DNA from: Oerskovia flava
GTDB taxonomy: Bacteria; Actinomycetota; Actinomycetes; Actinomycetales; Cellulomonadaceae
DNA length: 64,000 bases
Assembly (NCBI RefSeq): GCF_026163685.1
Contig: NZ_JAOXSR010000001.1
Span: forward strand, 186,001 to 250,000
Reading direction: 5' to 3'
Both the position numbers and the translations under genes were made by a program. Of this stretch, positions 50,063-54,676 are shown in pieces. The stretch's first letter is position 1. Each line of letters opens with the position of its first letter. The notes below the pieces were generated by a model. The model was not told the DNA's origin, made no database searches, and saw only the letters and a list, made by a program, of their open reading frames with translations.

Positions 50063-50461
50063 CTACTCGAAGCGGATGCGCGCCACCCGGTCCGCGACCG
50101 GGACGTCGGCCGCCTCGGACCCCTCGTTCGCGAGCCGGTGCACGACGAACGCGATCTCGTGGGCCAACCCGTCCTCCAACGCCGTGAGCGTCGACCCGTC
50201 GACGAGCAGCCGCCGACCTCGGACGGTCAGCCGCACCTCGGGGTAGCCCCGCGCGGCAAGGTGCGCGTGGCTCGCCGGGCCCTCGACCAGTTCCTGCTCC
50301 GCGGGCGTCGGCGCCCGAGACAGCAGGGTGGGGATCGTGTACGACGCCGGGCTGTCGGCCGTACCCAGAGACTGCGGGAGCTCCGAGGCGAGGACCGTGG
50401 TCACACGCAGCGGCGGTGGCGCGGGGTCAGGGCGTGGGGGCTGTCCTTCGGTCATGCTCAT
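50063..50461 (-). CDS. Hypothetical protein
   Basis: 132 residues from ATG 50461 (ATG 50455 is an alternative). A proline-rich N-terminus, then LPQSLGTADSPASYTIPTLL and a beta-rich half with VRLTVRGRRLLVDGSTLTAL. No signal peptide, helix or known motif. Codon use matches its neighbours, so it is probably real. 42 bases downstream of the PNPOx-like gene on the same strand. Confidence 0.65.
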   Translation of the reverse strand: MSMTEGQPPRPDPAPPPLRVTTVLASELPQSLGTADSPASYTIPTLLSRAPTPAEQELVEGPASHAHLAARGYPEVRLTVRGRRLLVDGSTLTALEDGLAHEIAFVVHRLANEGSEAADVPVADRVARIRFE

Positions 50462-50765
50462 CACGGTCCGTCGCGGCCAGAGGCATGGCGGTGCCGGACG
50501 GTCTGGCCATGGACCGGCGGCGAGGGCTGGAAGGGTCCTCGTTCCGAAACTACGCCCCGCCCGGCAGCACGTCGAGGATGGAGGCCCCGGTAACGCGAAA
50601 GCCTCCTTACGGCCGGAGCCGGAAGGAGGCAATCGTCGAGACCCCGCTCGCGCGAGGTGCGCACATCCCAGGCCACGACACGCGGGTCACCCCCGAGGTC
50701 GGACAGCAGAACAGGATGCTGCGCCGATCATCCCACGAGTCGCGCCGTGATGGGGGCTGGACGGG
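50462..50765. other. Gene-free region with an isolated hairpin
   Basis: No supported gene. One strong hairpin lies at 50601-50630 (13-base arms with one mismatch, 4-base loop), probably a terminator or attenuator. Base composition is less extreme than in the flanking genes, as in the erm remnant that follows. Confidence 0.45.
50601..50630. terminator. Hairpin upstream of the erm remnant
   Basis: GCCTCCTTACGGC (50601-50613) pairs with GCCGGAAGGAGGC (50618-50630), one A-A mismatch. Its role is unclear: it lies 150 bases before the erm leader promoter. Confidence 0.5.
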
Positions 50766-50803
50766 AAAATGCCGTGCACGTCACCATCAGGCGCGCGTAG
50801 CGT
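50766..50803 (+). promoter_or_regulatory. Possible WhiB7-type promoter of the erm leader
   Basis: AAAAT (50766-50770), three bases, a -35-like GTGCAC (50774-50779), an 18-base spacer and -10 TAGCGT (50798-50803). An AT-run directly before the -35 is the mark of WhiB7-dependent resistance promoters in actinobacteria. The ATG of a short ORF follows seven bases later. Confidence 0.45.
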
Positions 50804-50810
50804 CCCGCCC

Positions 50811-50861
50811 ATGTGTGCAGCAGCCATCGCGATCCGTCCCCGTCCCCGTCGCCACCGCTGA
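50811..50861 (+). CDS. 16-residue leader ORF upstream of the erm remnant
   Basis: ATG 50811 to TGA 50861 encodes MCAAAIAIRPRPRRHR. Its start lies seven bases after a -10, so it would be translated from the transcript's 5' end. An Arg/Pro-rich short peptide before an erm gene fits a regulatory leader that senses stalled ribosomes. It could be chance; it is called real because promoter, peptide and downstream hairpins occur in order. Confidence 0.45.
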   Translation: MCAAAIAIRPRPRRHR

Positions 50862-50893
50862 CGGCGCAGGGACACGCACCTTCCGAACGTTCC

Positions 50894-50959
50894 GCGCCCC
50901 CGGCTTCCTGCCGGGCGGTCGTCTCGTCCTGCCCGGCTCCCGTCGTTCACCAGGAGCCG
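50894..50959 (+). promoter_or_regulatory. Alternative-hairpin attenuator over the erm ribosome binding site
   Basis: Four segments can pair in exclusive ways: 1 (50899-50904) with 2 (50910-50915); 2 (50910-50916) with 3 (50931-50937); 3 (50934-50940) with 4 (50953-50959). Segment 4 contains the Shine-Dalgarno AGGAG (50952-50956) of the erm ATG 50964. So 3:4 hides and 2:3 frees the site, the logic of ermC-type translational attenuation. An extra pairing of 50863-50867 with 50894-50898 joins the leader ORF end to segment 1. Confidence 0.55.
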
Positions 50960-50963
50960 CCGC

Positions 50964-51451
50964 ATGTCTCGCACACGCCTCGGGCCGCACTCGGACAGAA
51001 CCACCCGGCGCGATCACGAGGCACCTCGACCGGCTCGGTCGGCCGGTCCGGGCCGTCGAGGTCGACCCACGGACGGCCGACGTCCTCCGCCGACGGGTCA
51101 GCCCGCGGGTGTCGGTCGTCGAGGACGATCTCCTGCGCCACGCGCCACCGGCGTGGCCGTACGACCTCGTGGGCAACATCCCGTCCCACGTCACGAGGGG
51201 TGGCGCTAGCCGTCCTCCTCACGCAGTGGGAGGTCGCGCGCAAGCGTGCCGCGGTCGGCGGGACGACCGTGCTGACCGCGCAGTGGTGGCCCGGGTACAC
51301 GTTGACGCTGGGCCGGCGCGTCGCCGCGTCGGCGTTCACACCGAGGCCCTCGGTCGACGGGGGCATCCTCTTCATCGACCAACGGGCCGTCCCGCTGATC
51401 GAGGGTCGTGCGACCTCGACGCCCACCGGTGTGTCGGGGCTTGGGCGCTGA
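50964..51451 (+). pseudogene. Decayed Erm 23S rRNA adenine-N6 methyltransferase
   Basis: Remains of an Erm/KsgA-type rRNA methyltransferase spread over frames. One frame gives RAALGQNH (the QNF start motif). A second, from 51004, gives PGAITRHLDRLGRPVRAVEV, EVDPRTADVLRRR, VSVVEDDLLRHAPP and YDLVGNIPSHVT (the NIPF-type catalytic motif). A return to the first frame near 51197 gives LLTQWEVARKRA, LTLGRRVAASAFTPRPSVDG and the stop. About 35 codons of SAM-binding motif I, and more after NIPS, are missing against a 260-residue Erm. At least two frame changes make it inactive unless the sequence is wrong. It would have given MLS resistance. Confidence 0.8.
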
Positions 51452-51564
51452 GTCGCCGGCGTGCCGGGCGCCGTGGACCACGACTCTGACCCGCCGACGT
51501 GCAACCTCGTGGAGGTGGGCCGGAGTGCTTGACCGGATTCGGAGGCACGTGGTTTGATCCCTCG

Positions 51565-51662
51565 CACAGGAGGGGAGTACCCCACCCACGCCTCGTCGTC
51601 AGTACGGCCCATGAGGGTTCCGGCGAGCGGGCCCGTCACAGGGCTGGGAGAGACCTCCGATC
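51565..51662 (+). ncRNA. yybP-ykoY manganese riboswitch
   Basis: Conserved 5' segment AGGAGGGGAGTACCCC (51568-51583) and 3' segment GCTGGGAGAGACCTCC (51643-51658), the two ends that form the Mn2+ site, with CGTCGTCAGTACGG between them as in actinobacterial members. P1 pairs 51569-51573 with 51654-51658. It lies 20 bases before a TerC-family gene, a standard partner of this riboswitch. Confidence 0.92.
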
Positions 51663-51674
51663 AGAGGATCGGAG
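51655..51674 (+). promoter_or_regulatory. Shine-Dalgarno-sequestering hairpin competing with riboswitch P1
   Basis: CTCCGATC (51655-51662) pairs perfectly with GATCGGAG (51667-51674), four-base loop. The right arm holds the GGAG ribosome site of the TerC gene; the left arm shares four of five bases with the 3' strand of P1. With Mn2+ bound, P1 should form and the site be released. Confidence 0.75.
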
Positions 51675-51681
51675 TGTTCTG

Positions 51682-52740
51682 ATGGATGTCCCGTTCTGGG
51701 TCTGGGCCTCAGTGCTCGGCGTCATCGTCGTGATGCTGGCCGTCGACCTGTTCGCCCACCGCCGGGCCCATGTGATCGGAGTGAAGGAAGCGGCCGCCTG
51801 GTCTGGGGTCTGGGTCGCTCTCGGTGTTGCTTTCGGGGTGGTCATCTGGTGGGTCTGGGGTGCTGGGTTCGCGCAGCAGTACTTCGCCGGCTACCTGATC
51901 GAGAAGTCCCTCGCCGTCGACAACGTCTTCGTGTGGGCCATCATCCTCAGCTACTTTGCCGTCCCCCGTGAGTTCCAGCATCGGGTCCTGTTCCTGGGAG
52001 TGCTGGGCGCACTGGTCTTTCGCGGCATCTTCATCGCTGCCGGGGCCATCCTCATCCAGAACTTCGCCTGGGTGCTGTACGTCTTCGCTGCGTTCCTGCT
52101 CTTCACCGGGTTCCGGATGATTCGACAGCGTCACGACCACCTGGAACCAGACCGGTCGGTGGTGCTGCGCACCTTCCGCCGGTTCATCCCGATGACCCAG
52201 ACCTACCACGGCCAGAGACTGCTGGTCCGCCGCAACGGGATGCTCCTGGCCACCCCGTTGCTGGCCGTGCTGGTCCTGATCGAGGTCACCGACGTGGTGT
52301 TCGCCGTGGACTCCATCCCCGCCATCTTCGCGGTGACCGACGAGGTGTTCCTGGTCTTCACCGCCAATGCCTTCGCGGTCCTGGGTCTTCGCGCGATGTA
52401 CTTCCTGCTCGCCGACCTGATCCACCGCTTCGTCTTCCTCAAGGTCGGCCTGGCTCTGGTGCTCATCTGGGTCGGGGTGAAGATGCTTCTCAAGATCGAC
52501 GTCTTCTACGTCCCGACCACCGTGTCCCTGGCAGTCGTCGCCACGATCATCACCGTCTCGATCATCGCGAGCCTGCGCGCCACCCGCGGGCAAGGCCGCC
52601 AAGCGCTGCCCGCACCGTCCGATCCTCCGTTCAGGGTCGCCACCGAGACGGAGGACGCCGATCTGCAACCCTTGTGGGGATCACCCGGCAGGACCGGAGG
52701 CCGCGCTACGACGGCCGACCACGAAGACGGCGGTCCTTGA
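51682..52740 (+). CDS. TerC-family membrane protein (Mn2+ export / Alx-like)
   Basis: 352 residues with about nine helices. TerC motifs: YLIEKSLAVDNVFVWAIIL and LIEVTDVVFAVDSIPAIFAV with the conserved acidic residues, plus FLVFTANAFAVLGLRAMYF. The 60-residue polar tail is variable. Family members such as Alx export manganese or support metalated exoproteins. Directly under a manganese riboswitch whose folding exposes its Shine-Dalgarno, so Mn2+ should raise its synthesis. Confidence 0.93.
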   Translation: MDVPFWVWASVLGVIVVMLAVDLFAHRRAHVIGVKEAAAWSGVWVALGVAFGVVIWWVWGAGFAQQYFAGYLIEKSLAVDNVFVWAIILSYFAVPREFQHRVLFLGVLGALVFRGIFIAAGAILIQNFAWVLYVFAAFLLFTGFRMIRQRHDHLEPDRSVVLRTFRRFIPMTQTYHGQRLLVRRNGMLLATPLLAVLVLIEVTDVVFAVDSIPAIFAVTDEVFLVFTANAFAVLGLRAMYFLLADLIHRFVFLKVGLALVLIWVGVKMLLKIDVFYVPTTVSLAVVATIITVSIIASLRATRGQGRQALPAPSDPPFRVATETEDADLQPLWGSPGRTGGRATTADHEDGGP

Positions 52741-53643: not shown

Positions 53644-54408
53644 TCAGTCCCCGACCGGCCCGACGATCCACAGCCCACCGAGCACGGCCGCGCCGACCGT
53701 GACGAGCAGGAACACCACGACCCAGAACAGCCCGGGCAGCCGCGTCAGGCGCGCGAGCATGTCGGCGTCCGAGCTGCGTGCGCGCCCGCGCGAGCGCTCG
53801 GCCTGCAGCTCGATCACGGGGCGGACGGCGCCGAGCAGCAGGAACCACGTGACCGTGTACGCCACGGCGCTCTGCGCCTGCGGCTCCAGCCACCACGACA
53901 CGGCCACGAGGGCCGCGCCGCTGACCAGCACCGACCACAGCCCGAACCAGTTGCGGATCTGCGCCAGCATGAGAGTCAGCAGCAGCACCAGCAGCCACAG
54001 CAGCCCGACGGCGTAGCCCTGGCGCAGCAGCGCGGCCGCCCCCAGCCCGATCAGCCCGGGCCCGACGTACCCCATGAAGGCCGTGAGGATCATGCCGAAG
54101 CCGCGCGGCCGCCCGTAGGAGACCGTCAGGCCCGAGGTGTCCGAGTGCAGCCGGATGCCGCTCAGCCGACGACCCGTGAGCAGCGCCGCCAACGCGTGCG
54201 CCCCCTCGTGCGCGATCGTCACGACATGGCGCGCGACGCGCCACACCGGCGTGACGAGCACGACGGCGACCGCCACCGCAGCCGTCACCATCACGACCGA
54301 CGTGTCGGGAGCAGCGACCGGCGTCGTCGCGGCCTGCCAGATCTGCCCGACGACGTCCGTCACGCTCGCCCATGCCCCTGCGGAGGTGTCGACTGTCACG
54401 CGCGACAT
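53644..54408 (-). CDS. M50-like membrane metalloprotease
   Basis: 254 residues from ATG 54408. Zinc motif HEGAH in VVTIAHEGAHALAALLTGRR, at the end of the first helix, then GMILTAFMGYVGPGLIGLGA and three to four more helices (WLLVLLLTLMLAQIRNWFGL). The short form without PDZ domain is common in actinobacteria. Site-2-type intramembrane cleavage is possible but no substrate or anti-sigma gene is adjacent. Confidence 0.85.
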   Translation of the reverse strand: MSRVTVDTSAGAWASVTDVVGQIWQAATTPVAAPDTSVVMVTAAVAVAVVLVTPVWRVARHVVTIAHEGAHALAALLTGRRLSGIRLHSDTSGLTVSYGRPRGFGMILTAFMGYVGPGLIGLGAAALLRQGYAVGLLWLLVLLLTLMLAQIRNWFGLWSVLVSGAALVAVSWWLEPQAQSAVAYTVTWFLLLGAVRPVIELQAERSRGRARSSDADMLARLTRLPGLFWVVVFLLVTVGAAVLGGLWIVGPVGD

Positions 54409-54676
54409 TCCACCACAACCGCCTGTGCCCGACCCCCACAACGACCCTGCCCGTCGTCGAGCACGACGTTGAGGTCGTCGGGCGCGGGTTCACGGCAGCA
54501 GGGTCGTGTTCGGCGGGGGAACGAAGGGGGAGACATAGGTCACCACCACGGTCGGGGGCGGGCATGAGACACTGGGTTCACGAGGGCAGCGCAACTGCGC
54601 GCCCCGCGTCGTGGAGATCCCCCCGGATTACGTGCGGCGGACCCCGATCCTTTGAGCCCCGAGAGGCCCACACACT

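Follow-up and report, generated by a model that had tools for sequence, protein, structure and literature searches.

A compact, P2-less candidate manganese riboswitch precedes terC in Oerskovia flava and probably acts as a translational ON switch

According to crystal structures and single-molecule studies of the manganese riboswitches of L. lactis and X. oryzae, Mn2+ sits between the loops L1 and L3, where it contacts N7 of an invariant adenosine (PMC6754395, PMC9190785, PMC11087558). In L. lactis, the 3' strand of helix P1.1 leaves for a terminator when the ligand is absent, and such strand partitioning is an established switch (PMC11087558). Translational ON control by Mn2+ has been established for mntP and alx of E. 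coli (PMC9603457, PMC11647493); hence the switch logic considered below is not new, being already known from these two genes. For Mycobacterium or Streptomyces, the open-access literature gave only passing co-mentions of an actinobacterial Mn riboswitch.

The DNA analysed here, called the window, is a stretch of 64,000 nucleotides from Oerskovia flava (RefSeq assembly GCF_026163685.1, contig NZ_JAOXSR010000001.1, positions 186,001 to 250,000), and all positions given are those of the window. The leader under study is followed by a gene of the TerC/Alx type (profile search, TIGR03718, cut-off 246.4 bits, score 402.8 bits, E 1e-120), which provides the association with a Mn efflux or TerC-type gene. 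Its start codon is the ATG at 51682, and a search of the TerC protein against solved structures gave no match. Just upstream of the leader (50416-51486, + strand), fragments of an rRNA adenine dimethylase gene can be seen (PF00398, 20.7 bits, below the cut-off), apparently in more than one frame, which look like a decayed Erm/KsgA-type gene; an M50B-like peptidase is also found near terC (53644-54441, - strand, PF13398 1.5e-67). In relatives, a TANNNT motif is most frequent 14-17 nt before P1.1 (56 of 90 leaders against 7.7 in shuffled ones), which probably places the transcript start at the aptamer. For the window leader, the transcript start is predicted near the 5' edge of P1.1, the promoter there being a weak match that a strict consensus scan of the window did not return.

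By direct reading, the leader contains a perfect 8-bp hairpin formed by CTCCGATC (51655-51662) and GATCGGAG (51667-51674) around an AGAG loop, and the GGAG at 51671-51674, 7 nt before the ATG at 51682, lies inside its right arm. A preliminary description of this DNA had claimed that such a hairpin buries the GGAG of the TerC gene and that its left arm overlaps the 3' strand of P1, and both claims are confirmed: P1.1 is made of GGAGG (51569-51573) and CCUCC (51654-51658), and four bases (51655-51658) are common to P1.1 and the anti-Shine-Dalgarno (anti-SD) arm. No intrinsic terminator or T-run is present in the window leader, and a terminator explanation was dropped after this had been tested.

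Our reading, to which we give a probability of roughly 0.8, is that the leader is a compact variant of the yybP-ykoY-type Mn2+ riboswitch, built on a three-way junction without P2, and that it is a translational ON switch for terC. The transcript would start at or just before P1.1, and P1.2, P3a/P3b and P4 would fold round the three-way junction. At high Mn2+, the metal would bridge L1 and L3 and stabilise P1.1 (51569-51573/51654-51658), the formation of which would take CUCC (51655-51658) from the anti-SD arm, free the GGAG and let TerC be made. At low Mn2+, the toggle strand would instead pair with 51667-51674 and hide the ribosome site. Mn2+ as the ligand, like the direction and the size of the switch, is a prediction from sequence. 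The features are collected in Table 1.

Table 1. Elements of the terC leader and the downstream gene, in window coordinates
Feature	Position	Strand	Evidence
Promoter-like TTGACC (51530-51535), 18-nt spacer, TTTGAT (51554-51559)	51530..51559	+	Direct reading; weak for the window itself
P1.1 5' strand GGAGG, itself Shine-Dalgarno-like in sequence	51569..51573	+	R1 match; covariation columns 2-6/123-127
L1 5' side GGAGUA	51574..51579	+	Invariant in 90/90 parsed actinobacterial leaders, partly by construction
P1.2 5' strand CCC	51581..51583	+	P1.2 pairing in relatives
P3a 5' strand CUCGUCG	51592..51598	+	Covariation helix 3; R1 match
L3 UCAGUAC	51599..51605	+	Tabulated L3 of relatives
P3b hairpin GGCCC-AUGA-GGGUU	51606..51619	+	Covariation helix 4; R1 match
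P3a 3' strand CGGCGAG	51621..51627	+	Covariation; R1 match
P4 hairpin GCCC-GUCACA-GGGC	51631..51644	+	Covariation helix 5; R1 match
P1.2 3' strand GGG	51646..51648	+	P1.2 pairing in relatives; R1 match
L1 3' side GAGA	51650..51653	+	Relatives: GAGA 72, AAGA 15, CAGA 3 of 90
P1.1 3' strand CCUCC, toggle strand	51654..51658	+	Swap test; covariation; R1 match
Anti-Shine-Dalgarno arm CUCCGAUC	51655..51662	+	Perfect complement of 51667-51674; equivalents in relatives; swap test
Right arm GAUCGGAG with Shine-Dalgarno GGAG (51671-51674)	51667..51674	+	Direct reading; relatives; swap test; 7 nt to ATG
terC/alx gene, 352 aa	51682..52740	+	PF03741 1.9e-52; TIGR03718 1e-120

The preliminary description had named a covariance-model search for RF00080 as a check, and this search fails, with 7.3 bits at the window element against the Rfam gathering score of 45 (Rfam 15). 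A gathering-level scan of the window gave no match, and the best RF00080 matches in the whole genome, at 11 and 9.9 bits, fall elsewhere. Scans at gathering and at relaxed thresholds would hence wrongly suggest that nothing is there. Moreover, when folded by itself the element does not stand out from shuffles (z -1.04) and its minimum-energy fold is without the aptamer; since plain folding is unremarkable, the evidence is comparative. A covariance model, R1, was built from an alignment (A1) of 34 actinobacterial leaders, from which the window, its paralogue and the leader of Ornithinimicrobium sediminis (L194) were left out. R1 matches the window at 51568-51659 with 61.5 bits (E 5e-15, the next best match in the window having E 0.12), with the five aptamer helices and both metal-binding loops intact. 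Over the whole genome it returns two sites only, the window element and the leader of a paralogous terC (L033, L235; G000:C12:85381-85512), which scores 77.7 bits and carries its own perfect 10-bp anti-SD hairpin before a TerC that is 48% identical.

TerC homologues are present in 57 of 59 related genomes, and the terC leaders of many relatives share GGAGGGGAGUA ... GUCGUCANYACGG ... GAGACCUCCGG ... CCGGAGG-start. The closest named leader is that of O. sediminis (TerC 88% identical). A pattern scan of genome contigs gave more actinobacterial leaders, plus leaders from Bacillota and Pseudomonadota, and 90 of the 96 actinobacterial ones parse into P1.1, L1, P1.2, P3a, L3, P3b and P4. The choice of leaders required at least four of five P1.1 pairs and at least six of seven P3a pairs, which partly favours these helices, and the search pattern, which contained the GGAGUA of L1, favours L1 and L3; P1.2, P3b and P4 are free of such selection. 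The P1.2 pairs are kept in 83, 89, 87 and 82 of 90 leaders, for shuffled means of 48, 64, 82 and 72. Across the 34 sequences of A1, paired cells amount to 88.7% against 71.7% in shuffled data, changes on both sides are found in 183 cells against 62, and the covariation score is 0.494 against 0.198 (0/500 shuffles) and collapses once the partners are slid. All five helices covary. Conservation and covariation across dozens of leaders from actinobacteria thus support the manganese aptamer class, the overlap of P1 with the anti-SD arm and the translational-ON logic put forward in the preliminary description.

Both L1 (GGAGUA/GAGA) and L3 (UCA-NY-AC) are conserved in the leaders, and their conserved residues match the metal-site residues described before (PMC6754395, PMC9190785). 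In the window, the L1 internal loop is intact (51574-51579 and 51650-51653) and L3 (UCAGUAC, 51599-51605) keeps the invariant adenosine of the U39-C40-A41 stretch of L. lactis; A51601 corresponds to the Mn2+-coordinating A41. The four-way junction with P2 known from the crystallised riboswitches is replaced in the window by a short linker between P1.2 and P3a, and this linker is at most 12 nt long in 82 of the 90 parsed leaders, hence a three-way junction. Points against a Mn2+ switch are the RF00080 score, the absence of P2 and the C51580/A51649 mismatch in P1.2, where most relatives have U-A, C-G or G-C. The Mn riboswitch reading of the preliminary description is supported, with two corrections: the element is no RF00080 match under Rfam 15, and it has no P2 helix. 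Given the score and the missing four-way junction, it is filed as a compact variant.

The platform below the aptamer was compared across relatives as well. Over 88 leaders, the anti-SD helix score is 21.0 with the leader's own partner, 16.8 with swapped partners (maximum of 50: 17.4) and 14.0 with shuffled downstream sequence. In 62 of 90 leaders the 5' end of the helix lies within the P1.1 3' strand and the right arm resembles a Shine-Dalgarno; in those 62, the distance from the end of this arm to the start codon is most often 7-9 nt. The inner pairs of the arms show compensatory variation (U-A, A-U, C-G, G-C), and the P1.1 5' strand, the shared strand and the Shine-Dalgarno change together: at the fourth P1.1 position this trio reads G-C-G in 37 leaders, A-U-A in 9 and A-U-G in 14. 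A strand that pairs with the Shine-Dalgarno as well as within the switch helix is thus conserved with covariation. In one Nocardioidaceae leader (L092), a second copy of the P1.1 3' segment AAGAGACCUCCGGAG stands immediately ahead of the Shine-Dalgarno (AAGAGACCUCCGGAGG), possibly a duplicated toggle strand.

These data bear on whether control could act mainly at the transcript level with the aptamer kept, Rho cutting the untranslated mRNA and Mn2+ relieving this by restoring translation. Rho-dependent termination is used with the mntP Mn riboswitch of E. coli (PMC11647493), and in 25 of 34 Bacillota leaders the P1.1 3' strand pairs into an arm that is followed by a T-run, that is, an intrinsic terminator made from the equivalent aptamer strand. 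We regard this as a minority possibility, given that the window leader is without an intrinsic terminator, that the conserved pairing partner is the Shine-Dalgarno and that Rho would act downstream of the SD switch rather than replace it. Of the 62 actinobacterial leaders with an SD-like right arm, 4 have a T-run after that arm. The terC frame is open from 51499, which would allow a coding leader with a TerC start further upstream, but in only 32 of 63 relatives does this frame stay open as far as P1.1, the corresponding region of close relatives encodes unrelated peptides or contains stops, and the SD spacing and the M-D-V-P start agree with relatives. This explanation was dropped after testing and is hardly credible.

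In the unconstrained fold, the Shine-Dalgarno bases have an unpaired probability of ~0.02; when P1.1, P1.2 and P3a are enforced, this rises to ~0.73-0.77 for the first three of them. According to a nearest-neighbour calculation, which excludes tertiary contacts, Mn2+ and folding order, the OFF ensemble is better by ~9 kcal/mol. For the ON state to form, Mn2+ and the order of folding would have to offset this preference. The constrained ON fold also has a window-specific pairing, 51660-51666/51677-51683, which may partly cover the AUG; it is absent in the close relative L194 and was treated as chance. Such a strong OFF preference, together with the mismatched P1.2 pair, would also suit a hairpin that is a fixed translation damper without sensing, the upstream structure being a decayed old riboswitch. 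However, the window retains all five helices and both loops of the aptamer, and in relatives the toggle strand covaries with each of its two partners, which makes this very improbable.

Regarding the ligand, the downstream genes are of Mn-efflux types and Mn2+ is for this reason favoured. The aptamer might instead sense another signal or a combination, such as a divalent metal other than Mn2+, or alkaline pH along with Mn2+: the alx and mntP switches of E. coli answer to pH besides Mn2+ (PMC9603457), and L3 has two nucleotides after the invariant adenosine in most parsed leaders and one in AACAUAC-type loops. The metal-contact residues are kept though, the genes are those just mentioned, and the longer L3 is also usual in Bacillota leaders, so that we find such a signal unlikely. 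L3 as an unusual variant loop was rejected on the same ground, and no altered specificity is claimed.

Prevalence was assessed in a single sample of 296 Actinomycetota genomes. RF00080 is above its cut-off in 1/296 and reaches E 0.01 in 13/296, and the core pattern is found in 27/296 against 3/296 for a scrambled pattern. At E 0.001, R1 matches 74/296 genomes, including 26/26 of the window's class; the weakest R1 matches may be false, as R1 E-values are roughly calibrated and were set without decoy genomes. A single element working like known Mn riboswitches is not surprising alone, and, with a mechanism conserved in actinobacteria that resembles the E. coli cases, it is less singular than the preliminary description implied; what is new is the breadth, the R1 count set against that of RF00080. 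This exposes an annotation gap, Rfam 15 RF00080 being nearly blind to actinobacterial leaders. On five compact Bacillota leaders (L148, L116, L134, L158, L186) RF00080 gives 18-36 bits, below 45, hence the gap extends beyond actinobacteria.

In the wider leader set, the downstream genes encode TerC, P-type ATPases, GDT1, MntP, Na/Ca exchangers and a few unexpected products. In a Bifidobacterium breve isolate (L181), a leader of the same family precedes an M48 (HtpX-like) protease and has an anti-SD hairpin, CUUUCGACG/CGUCGAAAG, 9 nt before the start codon. Other unexpected targets are an M50 site-2 protease with a CBS domain (L223), a GreA/GreB-like protein (L163) and an AMP-dependent synthetase (L144, by sequence reading only). 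Tentatively, and with less than even confidence, we suggest that Actinomycetes, mycobacteria included, use a class-wide compact P2-less subfamily invisible to Rfam as their standard control of Mn export, and that in some lineages this subfamily also governs unexpected genes (HtpX-like M48 protease, M50 site-2 protease, GreA-like factor), possibly with a retuned response to metal or pH. In many actinobacteria, genes of the terC and P-type-ATPase types would gain a predicted Mn2+ response.

Among known systems, the terC leader of Corynebacterium glutamicum (cg2157) is likewise actinobacterial, with a mapped transcript, and has been listed as yybP-ykoY (PMC3890552); it differs in scoring 49 bits, above the older Rfam cut-off, and is likened by listing, not by sequence. 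In the L. lactis yoaB riboswitch, the P1.1 3' strand also joins another hairpin without Mn2+ (PMC11087558), but there the junction is four-way whereas the window element is three-way and P2-less. The yybP-ykoY leaders of E. coli alx and mntP are alike in being Mn2+-responsive and in turning on translation initiation of TerC/Alx or MntP; they are gammaproteobacterial, and their anti-SD arrangement is likened by description, not base by base. The compact Bacillota leaders, which we take to be of the ykoY type, share L1 and the UCA-NN-AC L3 and have a short linker where P2 would be; R1 gives them 48-68 bits. Their output, however, is usually an intrinsic terminator and not an SD hairpin, which makes for a clean contrast: one and the same aptamer strand goes to a terminator in Bacillota and to a Shine-Dalgarno hairpin in Actinomycetota.
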